Positions 11,264 to 33,336 of a stretch of DNA of 47,880 nt are shown one piece after another. The first letter of the stretch is position 1. Each line of letters opens with the position of its first letter. The position numbers were made by a program, and so were the translations under genes. This DNA comes from Actinomycetota bacterium (lineage in GTDB: Bacteria; Actinomycetota; CADDZG01; WHSQ01). The notes under the pieces are model-generated. The model worked only from the letters and a program-made list of their open reading frames with translations. It did not search any database and was not told the DNA's origin. The stretch covers positions 1-47,880 of the forward strand of contig WHSV01000019.1 in the NCBI GenBank assembly GCA_009379915.1, read 5' to 3'.

Positions 11264-11345
11264 CTGACTTTTCCCCCTTGAGTCGAGCCGATCGTGCCGT
11301 GGATGCTAAGCGCGCCTAGCGCTACTTGGGTGTCCGGTGCGGGGC

Positions 11346-11375
11346 CGGGCCCCCGCCTAGAGCGACGGGGGCCCG
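11346..11375 (-). terminator. strong hairpin after rnpB
   Basis: CGGGCCCCCG (11346-11355) pairs perfectly with CGGGGGCCCG (11366-11375) around a 10-nt loop, starting about 9 nt beyond the RNase P RNA 3' end. There is no T-run, as is common for high-G+C terminators. Confidence 0.65.
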
Positions 11376-11383
11376 CAGGTCCC

Positions 11384-11756
11384 GGAAGCAGGCCTGTAAG
11401 CCGGGTTCTGTACTCGCTCCAAAAAGGGCGAGCGGTGACCATCCATCTGGGACGACCGTTGCCGGCCGCCTCGTGCGGCCTACCCGGAGGTGCCTTGCGG
11501 CGGACGAGCAGCCCGCGCCTCCTGCTTGGCCTTGCTCCGAACGGGGTTTGCCGAGCCGCCGCGGTCGCCCGCGGCGCTGGTGAGCTCTTACCTCACCGTT
11601 TCACCCTTACCCGGAGCCGAAGCTCCCGGCGGTTTGCTTTCTGTGGCACTTTCCGCGGATCTCTCCGCCTGGGATTTTCCCCAGCGTCCTGCTCTGCGGA
11701 GCCCGGACTTTCCTCGACCCGCCTCTCGGCGAGCCGCGGTCACCCGGCCTGCTTCC
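11384..11756 (-). ncRNA. rnpB: RNase P RNA, class A
   Basis: The catalytic RNA of RNase P, which removes 5' leaders from tRNA precursors. Helix P1 is visible as 11 paired bases at the two ends (11746-11756 with 11384-11394). The minus strand carries the conserved 5' element GAGGAAAGTCCGGGC and the 3' element ACAGAACCCGGCTTA, plus GGAAAGTGCCACAGAAA in the core. Total length of about 373 nt suits a bacterial class A RNA. Its 5' end begins right after the stop codon of the ECF transporter gene, so it may share that transcript or use a promoter inside that gene. Confidence 0.95.
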
Positions 11757-12793
11757 TCACCCATTATCAACCGCGCGGACGACGAGGTTCATCCTGCATG
11801 CGGCCCGGCCGAGCGCCCCGAGCAGAGGCCGCCCGAGCAGGATCACGAGGGCCGCGTTGCCCACGGCCCGAAACGCGTCCCAGCCGAGCGAGGTGACCGC
11901 GTAGAAGCGGAGGTAACGGCCGAGGTTGGCCGCCCCGCCCAACTCGGGGGGCCCAGCCGATGCTGCTGGTCCCCGCCGCGTAGGGCCAGAACCAGAGGTT
12001 GATGATGGCCCCGAAGGCAAACCCGCTCACCACCCCGTAGGCCGCCAGCCACGCGAGCCTCCCCCGCCGGCTCCCGCCCCCTGCCTTTCTTGCGGTCCGG
12101 CCGAGGCCGCCCCGCGGCAGCCGTCCGGCCCCCATCCCGACCCATCCCACCGCGACCATCTGGAACGGCAGCCAGGGGCCGAGGCCGCCGACGAACAACC
12201 CGGACGCGAACGTGCCGATCGTGCCGAGCACGAACCCGAAGCGCGCTCCGAACGCGTTCCCCCGACCAGCACGACGATGAACATCGCGGAGAACCCGGCG
12301 ATGAATCCCGGCAAGCGCAGCGCCACCATCGCGGCCCCCAGGACGCCGATGAGCGCGACCGCCTTGGGCCCCATGCCTCCTTGGCCCGGCTGCAGAAACA
12401 GAACCGCGCCCAGGCACCCGAGGAGCATCACCAGGATCACCGGCGCGTCCAGCGCGTGCGCCCGCTCGCCGCCGACCGCGGCCGGTAGCGCGAAGGGCCA
12501 GAAGAACGCACCGAGCCCGACCAGGTTCGCCGCCACCAGGGCGGCGTTCTGCAGGGCGTTCGAGGTGGCTCTCGACCGTCTCCGGTCACGTCGAGGATTC
12601 CGGCCGGTCGCTTCACGGACACCACCTCTTGCGGAGATACCGCCGGACATGCCTGCCGCCGCCGCCTGTTCCGGCGTGAGCCCGGCGGCGGTGCGCGCCC
12701 CGCTCTGGTTCGTGACGGCCGCTGCGGGCACGACCGACAGCGCGACGGCGGCGATCACCGCGCACGCAAGCAGCCTGACCCCTCTCGAGACAT
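11757..12793 (-). pseudogene. ECF-transporter substrate-binding (S) component, frameshifted
   Basis: Three overlapping minus-strand frames together spell one membrane protein: a signal-like segment (LLACAVIAAVALSVVPAAA), several hydrophobic helices, GARFGFVLGTIGTFASGLF, GGLGPWLPFQMVAVGWVG, FGAIINLWFWPY and TSLGWDAFRAVGNAALVILL. These match the ECF S-component family that includes the cobalamin transporter CbrT. The frame breaks lie at G/C runs: 12779-12782, 12257-12261 (one base short) and 11946-11951 (one base too many). A good AGAGGAG precedes ATG 12793. A single extra copy of the dispersed repeat sits in a loop (12091-12117). The cobalamin riboswitch upstream supports a B12 or cobalt role. 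It is either a decaying gene or one with homopolymer sequencing errors; no EcfA/EcfT is nearby. Confidence 0.75.
12091..12117. repeat. single copy of the dispersed GC-rich repeat
   Basis: 27 bp differing from 18477-18503 at one position only, and from the last copy of array 1 at a few. It lies inside the ECF S-component gene, between two predicted membrane helices. Confidence 0.85.
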
Positions 12794-12830
12794 GGCCCAC
12801 TCCTCTCTCCGGTCCTCGCCGGAAACGATT

Positions 12831-12855
12831 CGACCCCTCGACAGGACGAGGGTCG
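12831..12855 (-). promoter_or_regulatory. hairpin between riboswitch and start codon
   Basis: CGACCCCTCG (12831-12840) pairs with CGAGGGTCG (12847-12855) with one bulged base and a 6-nt loop. It lies between the aptamer and the ribosome binding site, so it is the candidate expression platform. Confidence 0.5.
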
Positions 12856-12879
12856 GCGACGGAGTGGTCCGTGGCTCGC

Positions 12880-13015
12880 GATCCTCTGCCTCGAAGGTAT
12901 CGAGCCCAACGACGCGAGGGTGACCTGGCTCGTGCGAACGACGTTCGCACCTACAGTTGCGGGACAGCGCCGGAATTAGACCGGACTTCCCCCAGCGCAT
13001 CGCGTGGGTATTGAC
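12880..13015 (-). promoter_or_regulatory. cobalamin riboswitch
   Basis: Read on the minus strand, the leader contains GGGGGAAGTCCGG, then AATTCCGGCGCTGTCCCGC and the B12 box variant GCAACTGT, then a perfect 8-bp stem (GTGCGAAC/GTTCGCAC, 12932-12950), and then GAGCCAGGTCACC. This order and these conserved blocks are those of the cobalamin aptamer. The boundaries are approximate. It sits directly upstream of the ECF S-component gene, so B12 should repress its expression. Confidence 0.88.
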
Positions 13016-13044
13016 TTGTCAGCCGCCCGAGCGTGCATCTCGGG

Positions 13045-13560
13045 TCACGGCCTGAGGTAGCCATCCGACAGAAAAAGTTTGAACCGGTCGTATTCGCCGA
13101 GCCGGAAGGCCACCCAGAACCAGGCCAAGATGGCCACACCGATCAGCTCGCCTCCCCACGTCGTCAGATGCGCGATCGGGTCGAGAAAGAGATCCCAGGT
13201 GTAGGGCTCGCTCGGGGTCGACGAGAACCCGGTGCCGAAGGCCGGCCACAGAAACGTCTCCGGCGCGGCCCACATCCCGTCCGCCACCAGGTGGAGGAGC
13301 CACCCCACGCCGATGCCGAACAGGGACTGCCTCTGGTCACCGCTGAACGCGAGGATGATCAGCACCGTGACCGCGATCGCGGTGAATACCGAGTGGGCAA
13401 TCCATCGCCCCGCCGGACCCTCGAAGAAGAAGAGCCCGAGCCCCCCGTCGACGAAGTCGGGCAGGACGGCTCCGATCAGGATCATCCGGTAGTCGATGCG
13501 GCGGCGGCCCAGCGTGACGTAGACGATGAGGGTCGCGATCCCCAGGTGCCAGAGGAGCAT
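13045..13560 (-). CDS. membrane-bound metal-dependent hydrolase-like protein (YdjM/DUF457 type)
   Basis: 171 residues with about four hydrophobic helices. Conserved polar residues sit at membrane edges: His5 (LLWHLG), LPDFVDG, WIAHS and LLHLVADGMW, the His/Asp pattern of YdjM-like putative hydrolases. The substrate is unknown. The start lies 6 bp after the RNase HI stop, so it is the third gene of a minus-strand operon. The next feature downstream is the cobalamin riboswitch. Confidence 0.65.
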   Translation of the reverse strand: MLLWHLGIATLIVYVTLGRRRIDYRMILIGAVLPDFVDGGLGLFFFEGPAGRWIAHSVFTAIAVTVLIILAFSGDQRQSLFGIGVGWLLHLVADGMWAAPETFLWPAFGTGFSSTPSEPYTWDLFLDPIAHLTTWGGELIGVAILAWFWVAFRLGEYDRFKLFLSDGYLRP

Positions 13561-13566
13561 CCCGCT

Positions 13567-14058
13567 TCAGTCGAGCAACGAGGTCTGGCCGGGCCCCGGC
13601 TTGGGACGGCCGTCGTCCTCCTCGTCGGGCGGCATCCACTGGGCACCCAACTCCCCGACTTGCGCCGCGTCGAGGGCCTGGTTGACGAGCTTGTCGGCGT
13701 CGGAGTTCTTCCCTCTGGCGACGTGCTCGAGCTTCGCCGACCGGAAGCGGTTGAGCAGGCGCTTCGCCTCAACAGCGAGGCCTCGGAGCACGTCGGACTT
13801 GATCTTCCACTCGCCGTTCAGCTGACGCACTACGAGCTTCGAGTCGAGCTTGACCTCGAGGTCCGTCACGCCGCGCGCGTGCGCCAGTTTGAGTCCTTCG
13901 ATCACGGCCGTGTACTCGGCGACGTTATTAGTCGTCTCGCCGATGGAGCGGGATATCGTGTCGAGCTCGGCACCCTCCGAGTCCCGGAGGAGGACGCCGA
14001 TCGCGGCCGGTCCCGGGTTTCCGCGCGCGCCTCCGTCGGCATGCAGGGTGGCCGGCAC
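13567..14058 (-). CDS. RNase HI family protein
   Basis: 163 residues. The DEDD active site is visible as Asp8 (LHADGGARGNPGP), a Glu in NNVAEYTAV, an Asp in VKLDSKLVV and an Asp in GKNSDADKLVN. It cleaves RNA in RNA-DNA hybrids. It resembles the N-terminal domain of mycobacterial Rv2228c but lacks the fused phosphatase domain. A GTG start follows the zinc-ribbon gene by 13 bp. This zinc-ribbon/RNase H pairing is conserved in actinobacteria. Confidence 0.9.
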   Translation of the reverse strand: MPATLHADGGARGNPGPAAIGVLLRDSEGAELDTISRSIGETTNNVAEYTAVIEGLKLAHARGVTDLEVKLDSKLVVRQLNGEWKIKSDVLRGLAVEAKRLLNRFRSAKLEHVARGKNSDADKLVNQALDAAQVGELGAQWMPPDEEDDGRPKPGPGQTSLLD

Positions 14059-19710: not shown

Positions 19711-21831
19711 ATGGAGCAATGGCCCGGAATCCCCTATCCGCTCGGAGCCACCTGGGACGGCGGGGGAACCAACTTCGCGCTGTTCTCGGAGAACGCCACC
19801 GGCGTCGAGCTGTGCCTGTTCGACGATTTTGACGCCGAGACGCGTCTCGACGTGACCGAGGTCGACAGCTTCGTGTGGCACTGCTACCTGCCGGGGGTCG
19901 GACCCGGGCAGCGCTACGGCTACCGTGTCGACGGACCCTTTGCACCCGAGAGGGGACACCGGTTCAACCGTCACAAGCTGCTCCTCGACCCGTACGCGAA
20001 ATCCATCGACGGTGACGTCGACTGGTCCGAGGAGGTCTTCGGCTACAGCTTCGACGCGGGTCACGAAGCGGATCTCACCTTCAACGAGTCGGACTCGGCC
20101 CCAGGGGTGCCGAAGTCGGTCGTCATCGATCCGACCTTCGACTGGGAGGGCGACGAGGCCCTGCGTACACCGTGGCACCGGACGGTCATCTACGAAACCC
20201 ACGTCAAGGGTTTCACCTACACGAACCCCGCGATCCCCGACGAGATCAAGGGGACCTATGCGGGCCTCGCCCACCCCGCGTCCATCGAGCACCTGCAGTT
20301 GCTCGGCGTCACGGCGATCGAGCTCATGCCGGTACACCACTTCCTGCACTCGCAAACTCTGACCCACAAGGGTCTGCGCAATTACTGGGGTTACGACTCG
20401 ATCGGATTCCTCGCTCCCCACGCGGGTTACAGCGCGTCGGGAGTGAAGGGGGAACAGGTTCCCGAGTTCAAGAGCATGGTCAAGACGATGCATGCGGCGG
20501 GTATCGAGGTCATCCTCGACGTCGTCTACAACCACACCGGAGAGGGCAACCACATGGGTCCGACGGTGAGCTTTCGCGGTATCGACAACGCCGCCTACTA
20601 CCGGTTGCTCGACAAAGACAGGCGCTTCAACATGGACTTCACCGGGACGGGTAACTCGCTCAACGTGCGCCACCCCCAGGTGCTCAAGCTCATCATGGAC
20701 AGCCTTCGTTACTGGGCCATTGAGATGCACGTCGACGGATTTCGTTTCGACCTCGCGTCGGCGCTCGCACGCGAGTTGTACGAGGTCGACAGGCTGAGCG
20801 CGTTCTTCGACATCATGCATCAGGACCCCGTGCTCTCGCAGATGAAGTTGATCGCCGAGCCGTGGGATGTGGGCGAAGGTGGGTACCAGGTCGGGAACTT
20901 CCCTCCCGGATGGAGCGAGTGGAACGGCAAGTACCGCGACAGCATGCGGGACTTCTGGCGCGCCGCCGAGGCGGGTGTCGGCGAGTTCGCGTTCAGGTTG
21001 ACGGGCAGCTCCGACCTCTACAAGGACGACGGACGACGACCAAACGCTTCGATCAACTTCGTTACCGCGCACGACGGATTCACGCTGAACGATCTCGTCA
21101 GCTACAACGAGAAGCACAACGACGCTAACGGCGAGGACGGCAAGGACGGGGAGAGTCACAACCGCTCCTGGAACCACGGAGTCGAAGGAGAGACCGACGA
21201 TTCCGAAATCCGGGCGCTGCGCGAGCGGCAGAAGCGGAACTTCATCGCCACCCTCGCGCTGAGTCAGGGCGTGCCGATGCTCCTCGGCGGCGACGAGATC
21301 AGCCGCACTCAAGGGGGAAACAACAACGCCTACTGCCAGGACAACGAGATCAGCTGGTTCGACTGGAGTCTGCGCGACGAGAACCTCACCTTGCTCGGCT
21401 TCGCTCGGCGCTTGATGCAGTTCCGGCGCGACCATCCCGTGCTGCGCCGGCACAGGTGGTTCATGGGCCGAGCGATTCACGGCGAGGGCACCACCGACAT
21501 CGCATGGTTGAACCCCGGCGGAGACGAGATGACGGAGCAGCAATGGAACGACGGTTTCGCCAAGTCGGTCGGCGTCTTCCTCAACGGCGACGAGATCGCA
21601 ACCCTCGGCCCCCGGGGAGAGCGCATCACCGACGACAGTTTCCTGCTGTTCTTCAACGCACACCACGAACGCATGGACTTCATCGTTCCCGTCGGAGGCT
21701 ACGGCAGGGCGTGGAACGTCGTCCTCGACACGAACGAGCCTCTACTCGACGAGGGTGCTCGCTCGTACAAAGCCGGCGACGCGATCGGCCTGGAGGCGCG
21801 TTCCCTCGCGGTACTGCGGCGCGTCGAGTAG
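19711..21831 (+). CDS. glgX: glycogen debranching enzyme GlgX
   Basis: 706-residue GH13 isoamylase-type enzyme that hydrolyses alpha-1,6 branches of (phosphorylase-trimmed) glycogen. An N-terminal CBM48-like domain begins PLGATWDGGGTNFALFSENA. The GH13 barrel carries DVVYNHTGEG, the nucleophile near Asp347 (GFRFDLAS), the acid near Glu382 (LIAEPWD) and FVTAHDGFT. ATG 19711 follows a TAATCT hexamer by 8 bases. It is divergent from the ABC operon and stands at the left end of the alpha-glucan gene group. Confidence 0.95.
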   Translation: MEQWPGIPYPLGATWDGGGTNFALFSENATGVELCLFDDFDAETRLDVTEVDSFVWHCYLPGVGPGQRYGYRVDGPFAPERGHRFNRHKLLLDPYAKSIDGDVDWSEEVFGYSFDAGHEADLTFNESDSAPGVPKSVVIDPTFDWEGDEALRTPWHRTVIYETHVKGFTYTNPAIPDEIKGTYAGLAHPASIEHLQLLGVTAIELMPVHHFLHSQTLTHKGLRNYWGYDSIGFLAPHAGYSASGVKGEQVPEFKSMVKTMHAAGIEVILDVVYNHTGEGNHMGPTVSFRGIDNAAYYRLLDKDRRFNMDFTGTGNSLNVRHPQVLKLIMDSLRYWAIEMHVDGFRFDLASALARELYEVDRLSAFFDIMHQDPVLSQMKLIAEPWDVGEGGYQVGNFPPGWSEWNGKYRDSMRDFWRAAEAGVGEFAFRLTGSSDLYKDDGRRPNASINFVTAHDGFTLNDLVSYNEKHNDANGEDGKDGESHNRSWNHGVEGETDDSEIRALRERQKRNFIATLALSQGVPMLLGGDEISRTQGGNNNAYCQDNEISWFDWSLRDENLTLLGFARRLMQFRRDHPVLRRHRWFMGRAIHGEGTTDIAWLNPGGDEMTEQQWNDGFAKSVGVFLNGDEIATLGPRGERITDDSFLLFFNAHHERMDFIVPVGGYGRAWNVVLDTNEPLLDEGARSYKAGDAIGLEARSLAVLRRVE

Positions 21832-22262
21832 ACGAACCATTTCCCATGGTCTCCTGACCAAGGTCGATGCATGACCACTGCCGGCCGAGCGTGGGGAGGG
21901 TTAGCGCAGTAGGTCTGCTGGAGAGACTCACCGGTCGGTGCGGTCGGTGCGGTCGGCGACTACCACTCCGAGCGCTATTACCGGCAAAGTCTCCAGCAAG
22001 ACCTATCTCCTCGAAGGTCTCCTATTGCCCAAGCTATTGTCGGTTCCGCGTGCACTCCCGGAGCAGCCACCCGCACAGAAAGCACCACGACACCACCCGC
22101 GTCGTCTCCGTCTCCACGGTTGCGAGCCGGGTCCCGCCCTCGGTGCGCGGTATACGCCACCCCAACTGCGGGGCTCGACCAGATCTAATGGTCGACCTCC
22201 TCAGCTTCGATTCCAACCTTGAGACTCACGCAAAACGCCGGAAGTTCACGTAGCTTTGGTTC
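21832..22262. other. 431-bp intergenic region
   Basis: No gene with family similarity or good coding character was found on either strand, and no tRNA or known riboswitch was recognised. It contains a short GGTC/GACC hairpin just after glgX (near 21851-21863), a small 9-bp tandem repeat of GGTCGGTGC (21933-21956), and a candidate -10 at its right end. Small ORFs here have no recognisable features. Confidence 0.5.
22251..22262 (+). promoter_or_regulatory. leaderless-type -10 of the metallopeptidase gene
   Basis: TAGCTT (22251-22256) lies six bases before ATG 22263, and there is no ribosome binding site between them. This spacing predicts a transcript that starts at or next to the start codon. 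Confidence 0.5.
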
Positions 22263-22625
22263 ATGGATCACGCCGAGTTCGAGAGGTTGGTCGCGGACGC
22301 GATCGACTCCCTGCCCGCAGACATCGCGGAGGCGATGGAGAACGTCGACGTCCTCGTCGAGGACGAGCCGGCGGCGTACCTGGTTGCCGAGCTCGATCCC
22401 GGTCAAACCCTCTTCGGGCTCTATCACGGGGTGCCGCTCACGGCACGGGGGCCCAGCACCTACTTCGGCGCGATGCCCGACCGGATCTCGATCTACAAGG
22501 GCCCTCTGACGCGCGCTTTTCATCACCCCGACGACATCCGTAACGAGGTGCGCATCACGGTCATCCACGAGATCGCACACCACTTCGGCATCAGCGACGA
22601 GCGCCTCGACGAGCTGGGCTGGTAG
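22263..22625 (+). CDS. small zinc metallopeptidase (PF06262-type)
   Basis: 120 residues, normal for this minigluzincin-like family. The zinc motif is His102-Glu103-x2-His106 (VIHEIAHHFG), followed by SDERLDELG which supplies the downstream acidic ligand. Substrate unknown. The next gene starts 7 bp after its stop, so the two are probably cotranscribed. Confidence 0.87.
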   Translation: MDHAEFERLVADAIDSLPADIAEAMENVDVLVEDEPAAYLVAELDPGQTLFGLYHGVPLTARGPSTYFGAMPDRISIYKGPLTRAFHHPDDIRNEVRITVIHEIAHHFGISDERLDELGW

Positions 22626-22632
22626 GTAGCTC

Positions 22633-23670
22633 ATGGTCAAGCTTCCGCCACGCGTCGTGGCCGGAGACACGGTCGCCATTGCGTCGCCCTCGTGGGGAGC
22701 ACTCGGCCGCTGGCCGCACCGGCTTAAGCGCGGCGCCGCCTACCTCGAGTCGCTGGGCCTGAAGGTCAAGATCATGCCGAACGCCTTGAAGTCCGAGGGG
22801 TGGGTGGCGGGAACCCCACAGGAGCGAGCCGACGATGTCAACGCCGCGTTCGCGGATCCCGATATCGATGTGGTGATGGCCGCGATCGGAGGCAACCACT
22901 CGAACCAGGTCGCGCCCCTGCTCGACTTCGATAGCATCTCCGAGCATCCGAAACCCTTCATCGGCTTTTCGGACATGACCGTCCTTCATTGGGCCATCCA
23001 TCAACGCACCGGCTTGGTTACGTTTTACGGACCTTCGCTCGTGCTGGGGCTGGCCGAGGACGGCGTCGGCGAGGGCCTCCACGTCCTGGAGTACACCGAC
23101 CGCTACTTTCGCGCGGTGCTGATGGGCGGCGACGCCATCGCCTACGACGCCGCCCCCTCGTGGACACAGGAGTTTCTCGACTTCGACAAGAAAGCCGATG
23201 TGGGCAAGACGCGTCACAAGGAGCCCAGCCCCGGATGGGCCGTCCTACGTGAAGGCGAGGCGCGCGGTCCGCTGCTCGGCGGTTGCCTCGAGACCATCGC
23301 CTGGCACCTCAAGGGGTCCGAGTGGTGGCTCGATCTTGAAGGCGCGCTGCTGTTCTTGGAGACCTCCGAGGAGGCACCCTCACCCGCGCACGTCGACGGC
23401 TATCTGACCGACTTCGAGCAGCTCGGCGTGTTCGACGCGGTGACCGGGTTGGTGGTTGGACGCCCGGCTTACTACGAGCACGACGATATCGAGCTCCTGT
23501 ATCACGTTCTGCACGAGCGCACGGAGCGAGCCGGCATCCCGGTGCTGGCGAATTTCGACTGCGGACACACCGATCCGATGGCAACGCTGCCGCTCGGAGC
23601 GGAGATGCAGCTGGACACCGGCGTCGGAGCCTTCACCACGTTGGCGGCACCGACCGCCCCGCGGACGTAG
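22633..23670 (+). CDS. S66-family peptidase (LD-carboxypeptidase/MccF type)
   Basis: 345 residues. The nucleophile elbow is at Ser113 (GFSDMTVLHW), with a Glu in LLFLETSEE and a His in DCGHTDPMATLPLG completing the Ser-Glu-His triad. The family cleaves L,D-peptide bonds in murein recycling, or acyl-sulfamoyl adenylates (microcin C self-immunity). Sequence alone does not separate these. A GGTAGG precedes the ATG. Confidence 0.87.
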   Translation: MVKLPPRVVAGDTVAIASPSWGALGRWPHRLKRGAAYLESLGLKVKIMPNALKSEGWVAGTPQERADDVNAAFADPDIDVVMAAIGGNHSNQVAPLLDFDSISEHPKPFIGFSDMTVLHWAIHQRTGLVTFYGPSLVLGLAEDGVGEGLHVLEYTDRYFRAVLMGGDAIAYDAAPSWTQEFLDFDKKADVGKTRHKEPSPGWAVLREGEARGPLLGGCLETIAWHLKGSEWWLDLEGALLFLETSEEAPSPAHVDGYLTDFEQLGVFDAVTGLVVGRPAYYEHDDIELLYHVLHERTERAGIPVLANFDCGHTDPMATLPLGAEMQLDTGVGAFTTLAAPTAPRT

Positions 23671-23683
23671 TTTCGCCAGATCC

Positions 23684-23702
23684 GGGCCCCGACCTCGGGC
23701 CC
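23684..23702. terminator. candidate bidirectional terminator
   Basis: Two GGGCCC hexamers separated by CGACCTC can pair with each other between the convergent LD-carboxypeptidase and phosphorylase genes, which are only 40 bp apart. No T-run. Confidence 0.35.
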
Positions 23703-23710
23703 CGAACCCT

Positions 23711-26248
23711 CTAGGCCCAGGTGATCAGGCCCACATCCATCGGGTTGGGCAGATCCTCGTGTGCGGGGATCACGCGCACCGCGAAGCCGTAGAGGCCCGC
23801 GCGCTCAGCGGTAAACATGCCGCTGTAGCTCGCCACGCCGTCCTTGACCGAGCCCGACTCCATCGCGACGATCTGCGGCTTGGTCATCTCGCCGTTGGGG
23901 CCCACCGGACCGTGGGCCAACTGCACCATCACGTCCGATGTGTCCAGCTCGCCGAGCGATACAACGGCGGAGACCGTGCGCTCGTGGCCCACGTCCGCGG
24001 CGGTGACATCACCCTCGACGTCGAGGATCTTGACTCCGGTCCACGCGGCACGCACTCGGTTCTTCCAGCGTGCGAGGGCCCTGGCGCGCTCGTAGCCGTC
24101 TCTCTTCATCGCCTCGCCCTGTAACGCGGCCGGCTCGTACAGCTCGGCAACGTAGTCGCGCACCATGCGGTCCGCGGTGACGAACTCACCGATGCTCTGG
24201 ATCGAGTCCTTCACGCGTTCCGTCCAACGGCGAGGTACCGGGCCCTCGGAACGATCGTAGAACCGAACGGAGATCTCACGTTCGAGGAGGTCGTAGAGGG
24301 CGTTGGCGTCGACTCGGTCCTGGTAGTCGAGATCGGACGAGGCGTCAACAGTTCCTATCGCCCATCCGTTGCTGCCGTTGTAGCACTCGTCCCACCAACC
24401 ATCGAGGATCGAGCAATTGAGCGCTCCGTTGAGCGCCGCCTTCATGCCCGATGTTCCGCATGCCTCGAGCGGACGCCGGGGATTATTCAGCCACACGTCG
24501 GCGCCCTGCGTCAGTATTCGCCCGACTTCCATGTCGTAGTCCTCGATGAAGGCAAAGCGGAGACGAATCTCCGGATCGCGGGCAAAATGCACCAACTCGC
24601 GAATCATCTCTTTCCCACCGTCGTCGCGCGGGTGCGCCTTGCCGGCGAGGACGACCTGAATCGGTTTGTCCGAGCTCAGCAACAGGCCCTTGAGTTTCTC
24701 GGGGTCGGACAGCAGGAGCGTCCCTCTCTTGTACTGAGCAAAGCGACGCGCGAATCCGACCGTCAACACCCCCGGATCGAAGACTTCGTCGGTTCTCTTG
24801 ACTTCGGACTCAGAGGCTCCCCTCGCGAGCAGTTGTTTGCGCAGTCGCTCGCGCACGAAGTAGACCAACCGCTCGCGGGCGCGGTCGCGCGCCCGCCACA
24901 GCTCGGCATCGGGCACCTCGTTGATCCTGTTCCAGCGTGCCCCTCCGTTCTCGGCCCAACCGGGCGACAACCTGCGGTTGAAGATCTCCGCGAGCTCAGG
25001 CCCGAGCCAGGTCGAAGTATGCACTCCGTTGGTGATCGACGTGATCGGCACCTCGTCCTCGGGCACCTCGGGCCACAACACCTTGAACATGGAGCGCGAC
25101 ACTCGACCGTGCAGCTTGCTGACGCCGTTGGAACGACCGGCGAGTCGGAGCCCCATAATGGCCATGTTGAACACCGGGTCACCCTCGTTCTGGGTCTCGA
25201 GGCCGAGTGCCATCAGTTCGTCGAACGTCGCGCCGCACTCCTTGACGAACGACTCGAAGTAACGACCCATGAGGTCGAGGTCGTAGCGGTCGATCCCGGC
25301 CGGCACCGGCGTATGCGTCGTGAAGACGGTCGACGTCCGCACGGCCTCCACCGCCTCGCCGAAACTGAGATCGCCGTCCGCCACGAGCTCCCTGATGCGC
25401 TCGAGATTCAGAAAGCCCGCGTGCCCCTCGTTCGAGTGGAATACGCCCGGGTCGTGGCCGAGAGCGCGCAGCACACGCGCTCCGCCGATGCCGAGCACGA
25501 TCTCCTGTCGGAGTCGGTGCTCGCTCCCACCCGCGTAGAGCCGATCGGTGACCTCGCGTTCCTCCGGGGCGTTGTCCTCGATGTCACAGTCGAGCAGGTA
25601 CAGCGGAACGCGGCCGACTTGGGCGCACCACACCTGGGCGACGCACCGGCGTCCCTCGAGGTCGACGTCGATCTTCAGTGGTCCGTCGTCACCCGCCGGC
25701 ACCAGGGTGAGCGGCATGCCGTGCGGATCGAGCGCCGGGTAACGCTCCTGCTGCCACCCGTCCGCGCTCAGTTGTTGACGGAAGTAGCCCTGCCGGTAGA
25801 GAAGACCGATTCCGATCATCGGAAGCCCGAGGTCGCTTGCTGCCTTGAGGTGGTCGCCCGCAAGAACGCCGAGACCGCCCGAGTAGGTTGGCAGCGCCTC
25901 GCTGACGCCGAACTCCGGCGAGAAGTAGGCGATGGTCTCCATCTCCCCGCGGTGGCCTTGATACCAGCGAGGCTCGTTGAGGTAGCGGTCGAGCCCGTCC
26001 TTCACGGAGGCGAGGAAGGTCAAAAAGGGGCTGTCCTCGGCCAGCTCGGCGAGGCGTTCCTTCGAGACGATTCCCAGCAAGCGGACCGGGTCGTGCCCCG
26101 CGGCCTCCCATGCCTCGGGGTCAACCCAACGGAACAGGTCAAGAGCGCGTCCGTCCCACGACCACCTGAGGTTCGTCGCTATGGCGGATAGAGCTTCCAG
26201 TGGTTCGGGTAACGACGCGCGAACCGCAAAACTCCTGAGTGCCTTCAT
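23711..26248 (-). CDS. glgP: alpha-glucan (glycogen) phosphorylase
   Basis: 845-residue GT35 phosphorylase that releases glucose-1-phosphate from alpha-1,4-glucans. It is of the short actinobacterial type with an N-terminal DUF3417-like region (NLRWSWDGRALDLF). Landmarks include YFSPEFGVSEALPTYSGGLG, TTHTPVPAG, NEGHAGF and the PLP region EACGTSGMKAALNG with its lysine. ATG 26248 (MKALRSF) is chosen since the upstream extension to 26377 is not family-like and would overlap the glgE start. It is divergent from glgE, with a 127-bp shared promoter region. Confidence 0.94.
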   Translation of the reverse strand: MKALRSFAVRASLPEPLEALSAIATNLRWSWDGRALDLFRWVDPEAWEAAGHDPVRLLGIVSKERLAELAEDSPFLTFLASVKDGLDRYLNEPRWYQGHRGEMETIAYFSPEFGVSEALPTYSGGLGVLAGDHLKAASDLGLPMIGIGLLYRQGYFRQQLSADGWQQERYPALDPHGMPLTLVPAGDDGPLKIDVDLEGRRCVAQVWCAQVGRVPLYLLDCDIEDNAPEEREVTDRLYAGGSEHRLRQEIVLGIGGARVLRALGHDPGVFHSNEGHAGFLNLERIRELVADGDLSFGEAVEAVRTSTVFTTHTPVPAGIDRYDLDLMGRYFESFVKECGATFDELMALGLETQNEGDPVFNMAIMGLRLAGRSNGVSKLHGRVSRSMFKVLWPEVPEDEVPITSITNGVHTSTWLGPELAEIFNRRLSPGWAENGGARWNRINEVPDAELWRARDRARERLVYFVRERLRKQLLARGASESEVKRTDEVFDPGVLTVGFARRFAQYKRGTLLLSDPEKLKGLLLSSDKPIQVVLAGKAHPRDDGGKEMIRELVHFARDPEIRLRFAFIEDYDMEVGRILTQGADVWLNNPRRPLEACGTSGMKAALNGALNCSILDGWWDECYNGSNGWAIGTVDASSDLDYQDRVDANALYDLLEREISVRFYDRSEGPVPRRWTERVKDSIQSIGEFVTADRMVRDYVAELYEPAALQGEAMKRDGYERARALARWKNRVRAAWTGVKILDVEGDVTAADVGHERTVSAVVSLGELDTSDVMVQLAHGPVGPNGEMTKPQIVAMESGSVKDGVASYSGMFTAERAGLYGFAVRVIPAHEDLPNPMDVGLITWA

Positions 26249-26375
26249 CCGCACAGTGTCGCGCAGGGCAAGTAGAGCAAAGTAGCCTCCTTGATTACGC
26301 AATTTTGCGGAGCACAGGGCTCGCGGGCCCGGGCCCTGACACAAAAAGACCAGCCAACAACTGCCAGGAAGGAGC

Positions 26376-28349
26376 ATGGCCGGCGTGAAGTCTTTCCTTC
26401 GAAGAGGTCACGTCATCATCGAGAGCGTCGAGCCCCAGGTCGACTGCGGCCGCTATCGCGCCAAGGCCATCGCCGGCGACGACGTTGATGTGGGCGCGGA
26501 CATCTACAGGGACGGGCCCTCGGTTCTCGCCGCCGCCGTGCGCTTCAGGGGTCCGGGCGACAAGAAATGGTCCGAGTACCGCATGACCCATGTCGACAAC
26601 GACCGGTGGGTTGGCTCGTTCACGCCGGACCGCATCGGTGACTGGGAGTTCGCGGTCGAGGCTTGGACCGACCGCTTCGCGACCTGGCGCCGCGACCTCG
26701 TCAAGCGGGTCGAGGTCGGACAGGACGTCGACGCCGAGCTGCTGGAGGGGGCCCAGATCCTGGAGGACCACCTGAAGGCCCTCCCGGCGGCCGAGCGGAA
26801 GAAGGTCAGGGAGACGATCGTCTCGATGCGGTTGCCCGCCCAAGAGTCGACATCCGGTTTTGAGGATCCCCGCATCAAGGCGGCGCTCGACAAAGGGACC
26901 GCCGAGCTCATGTCGAAGCACCACTCCCGGTCGGGCTCGACGGTGACGAAACCGGCCCTTCAACTGACCGTCGATCGCGAGCTGGCGCGCTTCGGCGCGT
27001 GGTACGAGTTCTTCCCGCGCTCGACTGGAAGGACGGGCGAGCACGGAACCTTCGACACCGCGGCCGAGGAGCTCGCGCGGATCGCGGGCATGGGTTTCGA
27101 CATCGTCTATCTGCCTCCCATCCACCCCATCGGCACCACCTTCCGCAAGGGGCCCAACAACACGCTCGATCCGGGCGAGGACGACGTCGGCGTCCCGTGG
27201 GCCATCGGCGGTCCCGACGGCGGGCACACTGCGATTCACCCCGACCTCGGCACCTTCGACGACTTCAAGCGGTTCACCAAGGAGACCGAGCGCCACGGGC
27301 TCGAGGTCGCACTCGACTTCGCCATCCAGTGCTCACCCGATCACCCCTGGGTCACGGAGCACCCGGAGTGGTTCGAGCACCGGACCGATGGCTCGATCCG
27401 CTACGCAGAGAACCCCCCGAAGAAGTACCAGGACATCTACCCGATCAACTTCGACACAGAGGACCGCGAGGGTCTGTGGACCGAGCTGAAGGGAATACTC
27501 GACTTCTGGATCGACGCCGGCGTGAAGATCTACCGCGTCGACAACCCGCACACCAAAGCGCTGCCGTTCTGGGAGTGGGCCATCGGTGCCATCAAGGCCG
27601 AGCACCCAGATGTCATCTTCCTGTCCGAGGCCTTCACGCGCCCGAAGGTCATGAAGGGCTTAGCCAAGCTCGGCTTCACCCAGAGCTACACCTACTTCAC
27701 CTGGCGCAACACGAAGGACGGGCTTACCGAGTACATGAGGGAGCTGGCCGGGACCGACATGGCGAAGTACTTCAGGCCCAACTTCTTCGCCAACACACCC
27801 GACATCCTGCACGAGTACCTGCAGACGGGGGGTCGGCCCGCGTTCAAGGTCCGTCTGGTCCTCGCGGCCCTTCTTTCTCCCGCCTACGGCATCTACTCCG
27901 GTTACGAGCTGGGTGAGAACACGCCGGTGGCGCCGGGCAGCGAGGAGTACCTCGGCTCCGAGAAGTACCAATTGGTGCAGCGCGACTACACCGCCGAGGG
28001 CAACCTCAACCGATTCATCACCCGCATCAACCGGATGCGCAAGGCGTATCCGGTCCTCCACCACCTCACGAACCTGACCTTCCACCAGGTGGACAAGCCG
28101 AACCTCATGGCGTTCTCGAAGTCCCTTGCCGGCGAGACGTCGATCCTCGTCGTTGTGAACCTCAACCCGTACCACTGGGAGGAGGGCATGCTGACACTCG
28201 ATCTCCACGCACTCGGGCTGGACTCATGGGCCACCTTCAAGGTCCACGACCTGATCTCGGACGAGACCTACGAGTGGCAGGGAGCGCAGGCGTACATACG
28301 TCTCGACCCGTTTAGCGAGCCGGCCCACGTCTTCAGGGTCCTGAGGTAG
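26376..28349 (+). CDS. glgE: alpha-1,4-glucan:maltose-1-phosphate maltosyltransferase GlgE
   Basis: 657-residue GH13_3 enzyme that transfers maltosyl units from maltose-1-phosphate to linear alpha-glucan. The N-terminal domain has VKRVEVGQDVDAELLEGA. The barrel carries YLPPIHPIGTTFRKG, DFAIQCSPDHPWV, the nucleophile near Asp389 (KIYRVDNPHTK) and the acid near Glu418 (FLSEAFTRP), close to Asp394/Glu423 of the M. tuberculosis enzyme. AGGAAGGAG lies very close to the ATG. First gene of the operon glgE-treS-mak-glgB. Confidence 0.96.
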   Translation: MAGVKSFLRRGHVIIESVEPQVDCGRYRAKAIAGDDVDVGADIYRDGPSVLAAAVRFRGPGDKKWSEYRMTHVDNDRWVGSFTPDRIGDWEFAVEAWTDRFATWRRDLVKRVEVGQDVDAELLEGAQILEDHLKALPAAERKKVRETIVSMRLPAQESTSGFEDPRIKAALDKGTAELMSKHHSRSGSTVTKPALQLTVDRELARFGAWYEFFPRSTGRTGEHGTFDTAAEELARIAGMGFDIVYLPPIHPIGTTFRKGPNNTLDPGEDDVGVPWAIGGPDGGHTAIHPDLGTFDDFKRFTKETERHGLEVALDFAIQCSPDHPWVTEHPEWFEHRTDGSIRYAENPPKKYQDIYPINFDTEDREGLWTELKGILDFWIDAGVKIYRVDNPHTKALPFWEWAIGAIKAEHPDVIFLSEAFTRPKVMKGLAKLGFTQSYTYFTWRNTKDGLTEYMRELAGTDMAKYFRPNFFANTPDILHEYLQTGGRPAFKVRLVLAALLSPAYGIYSGYELGENTPVAPGSEEYLGSEKYQLVQRDYTAEGNLNRFITRINRMRKAYPVLHHLTNLTFHQVDKPNLMAFSKSLAGETSILVVVNLNPYHWEEGMLTLDLHALGLDSWATFKVHDLISDETYEWQGAQAYIRLDPFSEPAHVFRVLR

Positions 28350-28352
28350 CGA

Positions 28353-30005
28353 GTGGAGAAGCTCAGGTCCGACCCTGAGTGGTACAAGACCGCGGTCTTC
28401 TATGAGGTCTACGTCCGCAGCTTCTTCGACAGCAACGCCGACGGATACGGCGACTTCAGGGGGCTCATCGAGAAACTCGACTACCTCGAGTGGCTGGGAA
28501 TCGACGTCATCTGGCTGCTGCCCTTCTATCAGTCGCCTCTGCGAGACGGCGGGTACGACATCAGCGACTTCTACTCGATCCTCCCCGAGTACGGAAACCT
28601 CAACGACTTCATGGAGTTCGTCGAGGAGGCGCACAAGGGCGGCATTCGTGTGATCGTCGACTTCGTGGTCAACCACACATCGGACGAGCACCCCTGGTTC
28701 CAGGAGGCCCGAAAGCCAGGCTCACCGAAACGGGACTGGTACGTCTGGAGCGACGACCCCGAGAAGTACTCGGACGCGCGAGTGATCTTCGTCGATACGG
28801 AGAAGTCCAACTGGACCTGGGACGATGATGCCGAGGCTTATTACTGGCACCGGTTCTTCGGCCACCAGCCGGATCTCAACTTCGACAACCTCGAGGTTCA
28901 GGAACAGGTGCTCGCCGCGCTGAAGTTCTGGCTCGACCTCGGTCTCGACGGTTTCAGGCTCGACGCGGTCCCCTACCTCTTCGAACGGGAGGGAACGAAC
29001 GGTGAGAACCTCCCGGAGACGCACGACTTCCTAAAGCGCGTTCGCAAGGAAGTGGACTCGAACTTCGAGGACATCGTGCTGCTCGCCGAGGCGAACCAAT
29101 GGCCCTCGGATGTCGTGCAGTACTTCGGTAACAACGGGGACGAGTGTCACATGGCGTTTCACTTCCCACTCATGCCCCGCATGTTCATGGCGGCGCGCAG
29201 GCAGGTTCGCTACCCCATCGTCGAGATCCTCGACCAGACTCCCAAGATCCCCGAGAACTGCCAGTGGGGAATCTTCCTGCGCAACCACGACGAGTTGACG
29301 CTCGAGATGGTGACCGACGAAGAGCGGGACTACATGTACAACGAGTACGCGAAGGATTCCCGCATGAAGCTGAACCTGGGGATTCGCAGACGTCTCGCTC
29401 CCCTGCTCGAGAACTCGCGTGACCAGTCCGAGCTCTTCCACGCAATGCTGCTCTCCCTGCCGGGCACGCCGATCGTCTACTACGGAGACGAGATCGGCAT
29501 GGGGGACAACGTCTACCTCGGAGACAGGGACGGTGTGAGGACCCCCATGCAGTGGAGCGGCGACCGCAATGCAGGGTTCTCCAGCGCCGACTTCGCCCAG
29601 CTCTACCTGCCGGTGCTTATGGACCCCATCTACGGGTACGCGGCCTGCAACGTGGAGGCCGAGCTGCGCAGCCCGCACTCGTTTCTGCACTGGTTCAGGC
29701 AGCTACTGGCGATCCGCAAGCAACACCCCGTGTTCGGGCTGGGCTCCTTCGAGGTGCTGCACCCGGACAATGCCGCGATACTTGCTTTCATAAGAAGGCA
29801 CGGAGAAGACGTGGTGCTGTGCGTGAACAATGTCTCTGGTAGGGCCCAGGCGGTCGAGCTTGACCTCTCACCGTACGAGGGCATGTACCCGGTCGAGTTG
29901 ATGGGCCGCGAACGTTTCCCCCGCATCGGAGAGCTCCCCTACCTGTTGACCATCCCGGCCCACGGCTTCTACTGGTTTCAATTGACGAACGAGGATTCGC
30001 AATGA
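28353..30005 (+). CDS. treS: trehalose synthase (maltose alpha-D-glucosyltransferase) TreS
   Basis: 550-residue GH13_16 enzyme interconverting trehalose and maltose. It shows the VVNHTSDEHPWFQEARK region, the nucleophile near Asp203 (GFRLDAVPYLF), LLAEANQWP with the acid, and FLRNHDELT. It supplies maltose to the maltokinase encoded next. A GTG start lies 3 bp after the glgE stop, and the stop overlaps the maltokinase ATG by 4 nt. Confidence 0.95.
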   Translation: MEKLRSDPEWYKTAVFYEVYVRSFFDSNADGYGDFRGLIEKLDYLEWLGIDVIWLLPFYQSPLRDGGYDISDFYSILPEYGNLNDFMEFVEEAHKGGIRVIVDFVVNHTSDEHPWFQEARKPGSPKRDWYVWSDDPEKYSDARVIFVDTEKSNWTWDDDAEAYYWHRFFGHQPDLNFDNLEVQEQVLAALKFWLDLGLDGFRLDAVPYLFEREGTNGENLPETHDFLKRVRKEVDSNFEDIVLLAEANQWPSDVVQYFGNNGDECHMAFHFPLMPRMFMAARRQVRYPIVEILDQTPKIPENCQWGIFLRNHDELTLEMVTDEERDYMYNEYAKDSRMKLNLGIRRRLAPLLENSRDQSELFHAMLLSLPGTPIVYYGDEIGMGDNVYLGDRDGVRTPMQWSGDRNAGFSSADFAQLYLPVLMDPIYGYAACNVEAELRSPHSFLHWFRQLLAIRKQHPVFGLGSFEVLHPDNAAILAFIRRHGEDVVLCVNNVSGRAQAVELDLSPYEGMYPVELMGRERFPRIGELPYLLTIPAHGFYWFQLTNEDSQ

Positions 30006-31441
30006 ACATCGACGTGCAGTCACTCGTAGAGCTCCTTCCCCAACAGCGTTGGTTCGGCTCCAAGGACCGCATGCTGCAGAGCATCGACGTCCGCGACCAT
30101 GCCGTACTCGACGAGAATCAAGAGGGCGGGGAATCCGTCGTTCTAGCGCTGCTCGACGTTGTATTCACAGATGGGGCGAACGCGATCTACCAGATGCCCC
30201 TGCTCGTGAACCAATCCGGCGGTGTGCGCGACGCTATGGATGACGTCGGCCGACTCAGCGTGTTCGGGCGGGCCCTGGCGCGCGGCGAGACCTACAAGGG
30301 GGACCATGGGGCCTTCCGTTTCGGCGGGCCCGGCCTCGACCCTCTGGCACCGCCCGGCCACGGGTCCGTCAGAGTCATGGGGGCCGAGCAGTCCAACAGC
30401 TCGATCGTCCTGGACGATGCCGTCATCCTCAAGTTGATTCGCCGCGTCGAGGAGGGCGACAACCCGGAGCTCGAGCTGAATCGCTTCCTTACGAACGAGG
30501 GCTTCGAGTACATCCCCGCCCAGGTCGGCGAGATCTTCTACGAGGAGGAACACCCCGAGGGCGAGGGTGTCAACATCGACCTCGGCATCGCGCAACAATT
30601 CATCGGCGACGCCACCGAGGGCTGGAGCGAAGCGCTGAAGCACATCTCGGCTCTGTACGACGGGATCTCGGGAGTCGAGGACGCCTCGACAAAGCGCCAG
30701 CAGGTCGAGTCCATGACCTCGACCCTGCTCGAGGAGCTTGCCGCACTCGGAGAGGTCACGGCCGGCCTGCACATCCTGTTCGGACGAGGCCAGGAACACG
30801 ATCCCCAAGTGGCGCGCGAGTCGGCGACGGCGCAGGACCTCTCGGACTGGGCGATGCACGCGCGCCACGCGCTTGCGGCGCTTCCGAGGCCCATCCCAGG
30901 GCTCACCGACGAGCTCGTCGGAGCCGTCGACAAGCGGCTGAATGCGATCGAGGACCTCGATGATGTGGGGGCCAAGACGAGGATCCACGGCGACTATCAC
31001 CTCGGACAGGCGCTTCTCGGCCCCCGTGGGTGGCTGATCCTGGACTTCGAGGGTGAACCGCTCCGGTCGCTCGAGGAACGACGGTCTCTGCAGTCTCCGC
31101 TGCGCGACGTCGCCGGAATGCTCAGGTCCTTCTCCTATGCCACCTACTCGGCGCTCTACGAACGCGCGGAACCCGAATCGGATCGCTGGCGTCAGCTCGT
31201 GCCGTGGGCCGAGACCTTCGAGGGGCTGGCGCGCGACTACTTCCTCCAGGCCTATCTCCGTACCAGCCACGAGGCCGACCTGCTGCCGCAAGACCGCGAC
31301 AACCTGCAGAGGTTGCTCGACTTCTTCGAGCTCGACAAGGCCCTCTACGAAGTCAACTACGAGATCGGGCACCGGCCCGATTGGGTTCGCATCCCACTGC
31401 GCGGAATCATCGACGTGATCAACAGGAGCGATACCGGATGA
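30002..31441 (+). CDS. mak: maltokinase (Pep2/Mak)
   Basis: 479-residue kinase that phosphorylates maltose with ATP to maltose-1-phosphate, the GlgE donor. The aminoglycoside-phosphotransferase-like C-terminal lobe carries RIHGDYHLGQALL (catalytic Asp) and LILDFEGEP (metal-binding DFE). The N-terminus has PQQRWFGSKDR, typical of the family. It is separate from treS rather than fused. It overlaps treS and glgB by 4 nt on either side. Confidence 0.94.
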   Translation: MNIDVQSLVELLPQQRWFGSKDRMLQSIDVRDHAVLDENQEGGESVVLALLDVVFTDGANAIYQMPLLVNQSGGVRDAMDDVGRLSVFGRALARGETYKGDHGAFRFGGPGLDPLAPPGHGSVRVMGAEQSNSSIVLDDAVILKLIRRVEEGDNPELELNRFLTNEGFEYIPAQVGEIFYEEEHPEGEGVNIDLGIAQQFIGDATEGWSEALKHISALYDGISGVEDASTKRQQVESMTSTLLEELAALGEVTAGLHILFGRGQEHDPQVARESATAQDLSDWAMHARHALAALPRPIPGLTDELVGAVDKRLNAIEDLDDVGAKTRIHGDYHLGQALLGPRGWLILDFEGEPLRSLEERRSLQSPLRDVAGMLRSFSYATYSALYERAEPESDRWRQLVPWAETFEGLARDYFLQAYLRTSHEADLLPQDRDNLQRLLDFFELDKALYEVNYEIGHRPDWVRIPLRGIIDVINRSDTG

Positions 31442-33336
31442 CCGCCGAACCGCAGGCTCCGGCCTGGCTCGGAGACATCGACCTCTATCTGCTCGGAGAG
31501 GGCAAGCACAGACGGCTCTTCGAAAAGCTCGGGGCTCACCGCATGACCCACGAAGGAACCGACGGGGTCAGCTTTGCGGTCTGGGCTCCTGCCGCGCGCT
31601 CGGTGAGCGTGGTCGGCGACTTCAACTCGTGGAACGGCCGCGCCCACCCAATGCGCGTGCTCGGCGACTCGGGGGTCTGGCAGACCTTCGTTGCCGGCAT
31701 CGAGGACGGACAGAACTACAAATTCGAGATCGTCAACGCCGATGGCAATATCACGTTGAAGACCGACCCCTTCGCGTTCGCAACCGAGGTGCCTCCAGAC
31801 ACGGCCTCGAAGATCTACACCCCCGGCTACGAGTTCGGCGACGGAGACTGGATGACGCAGCGGGCCGCGGCCCATCCCTATTCGAGTCCCATGTCCGTCT
31901 ACGAGGTCCACCTCGGTTCCTGGCGGCACGACGCCGGGGGCGCGTCTCTCAACTACCGCGAGGCCGGGGATCAGCTCGCGCGCTACTGCAACGAGATGGG
32001 CTTCACTCACGTCGAGTTCCTGCCGCTGGCCGAGCACCCCTTCGGCGGTTCGTGGGGTTACCAGGTGAGCCACTACTTCGCGCCTACGTCTCGCTTCGGC
32101 ACCCCCGACGACTTCAAGTACATGATCGATACACTGCACCGGGCGGGCATCGGCGTACTCGTCGACTGGGTTCCCGCCCACTTCCCGCGCGACGAATTCG
32201 CTCTAGCGCGCTTCGACGGCACCGCGCTCTACGAGCATCTCGACCCGAGGCAGGGCACCCACCCCGATTGGGGGACTCTGATCTTCAACTACGGTCGAAC
32301 CGAGGTCCGCAACTTCCTCATCTCGAACGCGCTTTACTGGATCGAGGAGTTCCACATCGATGGACTGCGGGTCGACGCGGTCGCCTCGATGCTCTACCTC
32401 GACTACTCCCGCGAGGAGGGCGACTGGGTTCCCAACCGGTTCGGGGGCCGCGAGAACCTCGAGGCGATCGATTTTCTCAAGGAGCTGAACACCGTCGTCC
32501 ACGGTGAGCACCCCGGCGTGATGATGATCGCCGAGGAATCGACCGCGTGGCCTGGCGTCAGTCGTCCGATCTACGTGGGCGGCCTCGGTTTCGGCTTCAA
32601 GTGGAACATGGGCTGGATGCACGACACGCTCGACTACTTCAAGCACGACCCCATTCATCGCAGATACCACCACAACCAGCTGACTTTCTCGCTCATGTAC
32701 GCGTTCAGCGAAAACTTCGTGCTCCCGCTGAGCCACGACGAGGTCGTCCACGGCAAGGGATCGCTGCTCAACAAGATGTCCGGTGATCCGTGGCGCAAGT
32801 TCGCCAACCTGCGCTCGCTATACGCCTATATGTGGGCGCATCCCGGAAAGAAGCTGCTCTTCATGGGAGGCGAGATCGCCCAGTACAGCGAGTGGAACCA
32901 CGATGCCCAGCTCGACTGGCCCACGCTCCAGGACGACCGCCACGCGGGTGTCCAGCGCCTCATGGCCGACATCAACCGCGTCTACGGGGACTGCCCCTCT
33001 CTATGGGAGGTGGACGACGAACCCGACGGGTTCCAATGGATCGACGCCAACGACGCGGACAACAACGTGATCTCGTTCTTCAGAGCCAACCAGGGTCGCT
33101 CCGAGCACCTGGTCTGCATCGCCAACCTGTCTCCGATACCTCGCTACAACTTCCGCGTCGGATTGCCCACGAAGGGTGAGTACACCGAGGTGCTGAACAC
33201 GGACTCCGAGAGCTACGGCGGCAGCAACGTCGGCAACCTCGGCGTGGTGGAGGCCGAGCCGGTGCCGTGGCACGGACTCAACCATTCGGCGATGGTCGCG
33301 CTCCCCCCGCTGGCGGTTCTCTGGCTGCGCGCCTAG
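31438..33336 (+). CDS. glgB: 1,4-alpha-glucan branching enzyme GlgB
   Basis: 632-residue GH13_9 enzyme introducing alpha-1,6 branches. A CBM48 domain (about 30-130) has SFAVWAPAARSVSVVGDFN. The barrel carries DWVPAHFPRDEFAL, the nucleophile near Asp313 (GLRVDAVASMLYLDYSR), the acid near Glu366 (MIAEEST) and LPLSHDEVVHGKGSL. ATG 31438 overlaps the maltokinase stop; longer upstream frames are shadow. Last gene of the operon, followed by a clear terminator. Confidence 0.96.
   Translation: MTAEPQAPAWLGDIDLYLLGEGKHRRLFEKLGAHRMTHEGTDGVSFAVWAPAARSVSVVGDFNSWNGRAHPMRVLGDSGVWQTFVAGIEDGQNYKFEIVNADGNITLKTDPFAFATEVPPDTASKIYTPGYEFGDGDWMTQRAAAHPYSSPMSVYEVHLGSWRHDAGGASLNYREAGDQLARYCNEMGFTHVEFLPLAEHPFGGSWGYQVSHYFAPTSRFGTPDDFKYMIDTLHRAGIGVLVDWVPAHFPRDEFALARFDGTALYEHLDPRQGTHPDWGTLIFNYGRTEVRNFLISNALYWIEEFHIDGLRVDAVASMLYLDYSREEGDWVPNRFGGRENLEAIDFLKELNTVVHGEHPGVMMIAEESTAWPGVSRPIYVGGLGFGFKWNMGWMHDTLDYFKHDPIHRRYHHNQLTFSLMYAFSENFVLPLSHDEVVHGKGSLLNKMSGDPWRKFANLRSLYAYMWAHPGKKLLFMGGEIAQYSEWNHDAQLDWPTLQDDRHAGVQRLMADINRVYGDCPSLWEVDDEPDGFQWIDANDADNNVISFFRANQGRSEHLVCIANLSPIPRYNFRVGLPTKGEYTEVLNTDSESYGGSNVGNLGVVEAEPVPWHGLNHSAMVALPPLAVLWLRA

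Follow-up and report, generated by a model that had tools for sequence, protein, structure and literature searches.

ECF-CbrT of L. delbrueckii is an ECF-type cobalamin transporter (PMC5997447). In the available part of their paper, Burroughs et al. (2007; PMC1796856) predict B12-scavenging operons, mainly of low-GC Gram-positive bacteria, in which transcobalamin-like SLBB and toroid proteins accompany CbiO/CbiQ. The locus described here lies in the window, i.e. the whole stretch of 47,880 nucleotides analysed, which is the entire contig C137 of the draft genome of an uncultured Actinomycetota bacterium (3.39 Mb, 158 contigs, 95.3% complete). It is probably what is left of an ECF-type cobalamin uptake operon under riboswitch control, which decayed recently beneath an intact aptamer; most likely, a dying uptake operon has been caught mid-decay. 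The literature searched contains no paper describing a decayed B12-uptake operon like that of the window.

The operon is found complete in related genomes. The order in one of these, G006, is YdjM, riboswitch, toroid protein, beta protein, EcfT, fused EcfAA′, S component, CobU and CobT, and an identical five-gene block, from the toroid protein to the S component, is found 3′ of a riboswitch in G010, G014 and G057. In these intact relatives, binding of adenosylcobalamin by the leader would reduce expression of an uptake system of five genes. These encode two secreted proteins predicted to catch B12 (one a terpene-cyclase-like toroid, the other with a transcobalamin-beta-like domain), EcfT, the fused EcfAA′ and the S component. 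The transport substrate would be cobalamin, to judge from the riboswitch and neighbouring cob genes. As far as the accessible text on ECF-CbrT goes (PMC5997447), the relatives resemble that system in having S, EcfT and EcfA and a cobalamin riboswitch, with CobU and CobT added in G006. They differ in that the profile of their S components misses the solved CbrT, and the window has no motor. The relatives likewise carry a toroid protein and a secreted beta protein, as do the systems in the portion of Burroughs et al. (2007; PMC1796856) cited above, but here the bacteria are Actinomycetota and the two proteins are encoded by separate genes, both of which are absent from the window. Measured against that portion of the source, the relatives' operon is an extension of the 2007 prediction and not a discovery.

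The predicted fold of the beta protein (mean pLDDT 83) has the beta domain of human transcobalamin as its best match (Foldseek E 5.1e-4). Fourteen entries for transcobalamin, haptocorrin and intrinsic factor reach Z values of 11.5–12.4, followed by a Ruminococcus gnavus protein at 10.6, and the next row drops to 6.7. The putative link to transcobalamin comes from the predicted fold only, and the beta-protein profile finds no solved structure by sequence. Assignment to DUF4430 was considered and rejected, as none of 12 members matches that Pfam family. The toroid protein resembles squalene-hopene cyclase, and one of ten members also matches a eukaryotic cobalamin-binding family. The toroid and beta proteins would be the counterparts of the two domains with which transcobalamin sandwiches B12. 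At another locus, L097, the protein encoded at 2025–2972 and its relatives form a group of secreted and, by eye, membrane-anchored proteins that belong to actinobacterial B12 operons and are predicted to fold like the transcobalamin beta domain. The L097 beta protein adjoins a separate toroid protein, and the pair would constitute a two-gene transcobalamin counterpart unrecognised by Pfam.

At Rfam cut-offs the window contains two RNA families, RNase P class A RNA and the AdoCbl riboswitch. An earlier note, based on the sequence of the window, had pointed to conserved cobalamin aptamer blocks in the leader and had proposed a covariance-model search, and the search bears it out. The AdoCbl model RF01482 matches over its full length (positions 1–149 of 149) at 13017–12870 of the minus strand with the core intact, at 56.9 bits (cut-off 50; E 6.6e-8), and the RF00174 Cobalamin model scores 41.4 bits on the same leader. 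A core motif, derived from leaders of the host family, is exact at 12953–12990; it occurs once in the window and in none of 100 shuffles. The core columns of the aptamer are invariant across eight aligned leaders, that of the window among them. AdoCbl scores elsewhere in the family are 71.9 bits in G015, 58.4 in G007, 53.7 in G012 and 51.8 in G002, and the riboswitches of the intact operons of G014 and G057 score 27.7 and 31.1 bits, below the general cobalamin cut-off of RF00174 (31.5). By its sequence the window aptamer is without sign of wear; it retains its core and should still bind cobalamin. No second cobalamin riboswitch was found in the 158-contig genome. A riboswitch match alone is no proof of a working transporter, and the window copy differs from a typical cobalamin riboswitch in that it precedes a broken and mostly absent operon.

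The riboswitch and its flanking genes are arranged as in relatives. All features of the locus are on the minus strand. The upstream neighbour and synteny anchor is a gene for a YdjM-family membrane protein at 13045–13560 (PF04307, 1.8e-9), a family present in 13 of 16 genomes searched. The downstream anchor is the RNase P RNA at 11381–11755 (285.1 bits), and such an RNA is found in the flank 3′ of the S gene at seven of 19 loci scanned. A likely ribosome binding site (12810–12801) and ATG (12793–12791) of the lost first gene have the same position relative to the aptamer as in relatives. A helix of seven pairs covers this binding site, and 46% of 500 shuffles match or beat it; a helix over the site exceeds chance in only two of eight leaders (G012 and G006; <3% of shuffles), the window leader not being one of them. 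The folded window leader has a z of −1.66, and a scan of 11300–13700 yielded no promoter-like or terminator-like sites.

What follows the leader differs from the intact operon. Riboswitch and S component are ∼4.4 kb apart in G006 but 0.3 kb apart in the window, so that by hand calculation ∼4 kb is absent from the window. With tblastn, genes for the toroid protein, beta protein, EcfT and EcfA are lacking beside the S pieces, and within this assembly their absence is firm. Among 80 named loci with an S homologue, 78 have EcfA (at least 38% identity, lower matches being dropped) and 72 have EcfT; the 80 are the best of 589 relatives, and some are truncated by contig ends. One of the two loci without EcfA, L148, has its S gene at the contig start. 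The beta protein is present somewhere in 28 of the 80 loci and the toroid protein in 23.

The ends of the putative deletion are placed by gene order and position in the relatives. Behind the ATG, whose frame stops after 12 codons, a signal-peptide-like frame at 12684–12793 is out of frame with the ATG and, by position and character, is probably a remnant of the toroid-protein gene; a profile of the toroid N-terminus from six relatives does not detect it. Next to it, 12654–12680 probably encodes the very end of the fused EcfAA′ ATPase; in the relatives, too, EcfA precedes the S gene. Of 1202 segments in the six-frame translation of the window, a profile of the EcfA C-terminus places this one first, with E values (0.14 for the segment, 0.37 for the domain) that are not significant alone, and the five-residue core of the peptide is exact in four of ten intact EcfA tails. 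These similarities are suggestive only, and the signal-like N-terminus is probably the signal peptide of the toroid gene fused to the end of EcfA. In 11740–13060 both direct and inverted repeats are short and give no clue to the joint. The unusual signal-like N-terminus remarked on in the earlier note is present, but it most likely stems from the deleted genes and is separate from the S component.

The S component itself is in pieces. The first, at 12255–12551, matches residues 7–105 of the G006 S component (tblastn, 61%); the second, in another frame at 11953–12261, matches residues 104–195 (65%); and the C-terminal piece with its stop, at 11757–11951, is in the first frame again, as shown by alignment of the translation with ten intact S components. 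In three-frame translation the S frame runs to ∼12255, a second one takes over from 12261 as far as ∼11953, and the first then continues to the stop at 11757. The S component therefore does not lie in a single open frame; homology supports two breaks, at 12255–12261 and about 11946–11952. The start codon of the window S gene was not located. Of the three frame breaks at G/C runs that had been noticed originally, these two stand, both at or beside G/C runs of five or more, and the third (12779–12782) falls outside the S component, between the ATG that follows the ribosome binding site and the signal-peptide-like frame. The joined pieces, with X at the breaks, have their best match outside their own genome in G004 (E 1.3e-93), and S-component matches are found in 26 of 61 genomes searched, the host's own counted. 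Pfam gives ECF_trnsprt on one S frame below threshold (14.7 vs 30.7 bits), and a profile of 17 S homologues matches neither the solved CbrT nor any other solved ECF protein. Identification of the gene as an S component is thus upheld by homology, but its likeness to CbrT is not. A search for the S component in viral contigs gave eight stretches that fitted the pattern, none of which proved to be a relative.

Despite the breaks, the pieces show little drift. They are 59–68% identical to ten intact homologues, eight from the host's family and two from another, and their mean identity of 64.5% is within the range of the ten homologues themselves (60.5–68.6%). Of 79 columns invariant in the ten, 74 are retained, four are changed and one is at a break; when each homologue is left out in turn, it retains 79 of 80 to 86 invariant columns. 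Since the pieces are as conserved as intact genes, either decay set in very recently or the small frame breaks are errors.

The same locus in sister genomes is in related states: a stub, a clean loss and a replacement by BtuFCD. In G002 the riboswitch (51.8 bits) is followed after 31 bases by an S-component match to residues 167–258 of 264 only, then by an open reading frame that by eye resembles a CoA-transferase, and then by the RNase P RNA. Two further riboswitches of that genome are near CobQ, CobD and CbtA-like genes, and its own B12 synthesis genes could explain the loss. In G005 the RNase P RNA begins 30 bases after YdjM with no riboswitch between them, and one riboswitch is found elsewhere in the genome; the region concerned (L094, 6814–7743), where the operon is gone, is followed by a second, partial RNase-P-like stretch. 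In G007 the same riboswitch precedes a BtuF-like protein (PF01497), a FecCD-family permease (4.8e-90), an ATPase and then CobU, an importer arrangement of the BtuFCD kind that the window is without. At this locus (L044) the BtuFCD-like genes and CobU replace the ECF system, which the congeneric G014 retains. G001 has EcfT and EcfA directly 3′ of a riboswitch, and its beta protein is behind a second riboswitch on another contig, so that the operon is split over two riboswitches (L050 and L049).

The check for B12-dependent genes that had been suggested turned up several. The host genome encodes a protein of the methylmalonyl-CoA-mutase family along with a separate B12-binding protein, and another protein in which OAM_dimer and B12-binding matches are combined. 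These are among five PF02310 matches, four of them above cut-off, and there is one cobalamin adenosyltransferase (PF01923). A joined query of ten proteins found no match in this genome for toroid protein, beta protein, EcfT, CobU, CobT, BtuF, BtuC, CobQ, CobD or CbtA. Independent positives of this query are CobT (44%) and CobU (38%) in G002 and CobU (53%) in G007, the remaining matches of these two genomes being to their own sequences; G014 served as positive control for the toroid, beta-protein and EcfT searches. PF02361 overlooks EcfT in G004, G009 and G014, where tblastn detects it, and because it misses real EcfT the ten-protein search is taken as the main test of absence. FecCD has one weak match (27.9 bits; cut-off 26.5). 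ABC_membrane_2, which we take as a proxy for BacA-type B12 importers, has none in the genome. Two other CbiQ-family T components are encoded on contigs C51 and C118, and an EcfA query gave only other ATPases among the matches listed, the best (40% identical) on C51. The C51 locus (L066) is a second ECF-type cluster of the genome, in which a fused 609-aa double ATPase adjoins a CbiQ-family T component and a small membrane protein. Since the genome retains B12-dependent families, and none of the importers tested for is recognisable in it, loss of the importer should be costly.

It had been asked from the outset whether the transporter is decaying under its riboswitch or the assembly has homopolymer errors. 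Decay is the better of these two, but the main lesion, the absence of ∼4 kb, had been overlooked. Loss of the ECF motor and of two secreted proteins is beyond what homopolymer errors can produce, and this favours decay; the small frame breaks may still be such errors. A broader version of the error hypothesis has the cell carrying the full operon and the metagenome contig skipping 4 kb and bearing small indels. The small drift of the S pieces and the draft state of the genome are in its favour, and so are the retained B12-dependent families and adenosyltransferase; the strongest point against real loss is a B12 need with no recognised importer, which is why this explanation, though unlikely, keeps some weight. 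Against it, the absent genes were found on no other contig of the bin, and parts of the same operon were lost in other members of the family too. In addition, 32 of 39 distinct neighbouring open reading frames scanned have Pfam matches in one open frame, some of the other seven being alternative frames. Twenty-five neighbouring open-frame genes (29.2 kb) contain 73 G/C runs of at least five, and the remnant six; for two random breaks on 79 runs the chance of both falling in the remnant is ∼0.005 by hand calculation, a partly circular control in that the 25 genes were hand-listed and chosen as open frames, with eight other neighbouring open reading frames that have family matches omitted.

Conservation of the pieces also suits the idea that only the dedicated motor was deleted and that an S component is still made, alone or with another ECF motor, the breaks being errors or bypassed. 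The T components on C51 and C118, the former adjoining the fused double ATPase, would be candidate partners. Two frame breaks supported by homology and a start codon that was not located render this rather improbable. A new arrangement, in which the riboswitch drives a short secreted peptide from the signal-like frame and the S pieces are unrelated debris, could make use of the good ribosome binding site and ATG 3′ of the aptamer; but the signal-like frame is out of the ATG's frame, which ends after 12 codons, and the idea is highly improbable. Decay of the operon under its riboswitch is therefore the preferred explanation. We infer that the living cell carries these lesions and, as to the order of events, that a deletion, probably joining the start of the first gene to the end of EcfA, removed ∼4 kb. 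The motor and the catching proteins would thereby have been lost, frame breaks would have split the S gene, and the aptamer would now control nothing able to import B12. B12-repressed B12 uptake, originally proposed for the window, is suggested by the relatives' operon, but the window is without EcfT and EcfA.

The locus is ordinary in kind and informative as an intermediate. If the lesions are real, a single locus of one family displays several stages of loss or exchange of B12 uptake, the riboswitch surviving the genes it controlled, and a genome with B12-dependent enzymes is left with no recognised entry route for B12. Perhaps the only recognised B12 importer of a bacterium that needs adenosylcobalamin has just been lost and the sensor kept, so that the cell relies on an undescribed route or on the bare S component with a borrowed motor. 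This is unlikely, but if true the family's locus would be a natural series of partial loss, BtuFCD replacement and clean erasure.

Elsewhere in the window, an alpha-glucan cluster at 19711–33336 encodes a CBM_48/amylase protein, a phosphorylase, GlgE, an alpha-amylase-family enzyme, a maltokinase-like protein and a branching-enzyme-like protein. The open reading frame at 35054–36592 displays an unusual pairing: it matches the ribonucleotide reductase small chain (3.2e-16) and, at its C-terminus, SCP2 (3.7e-6).
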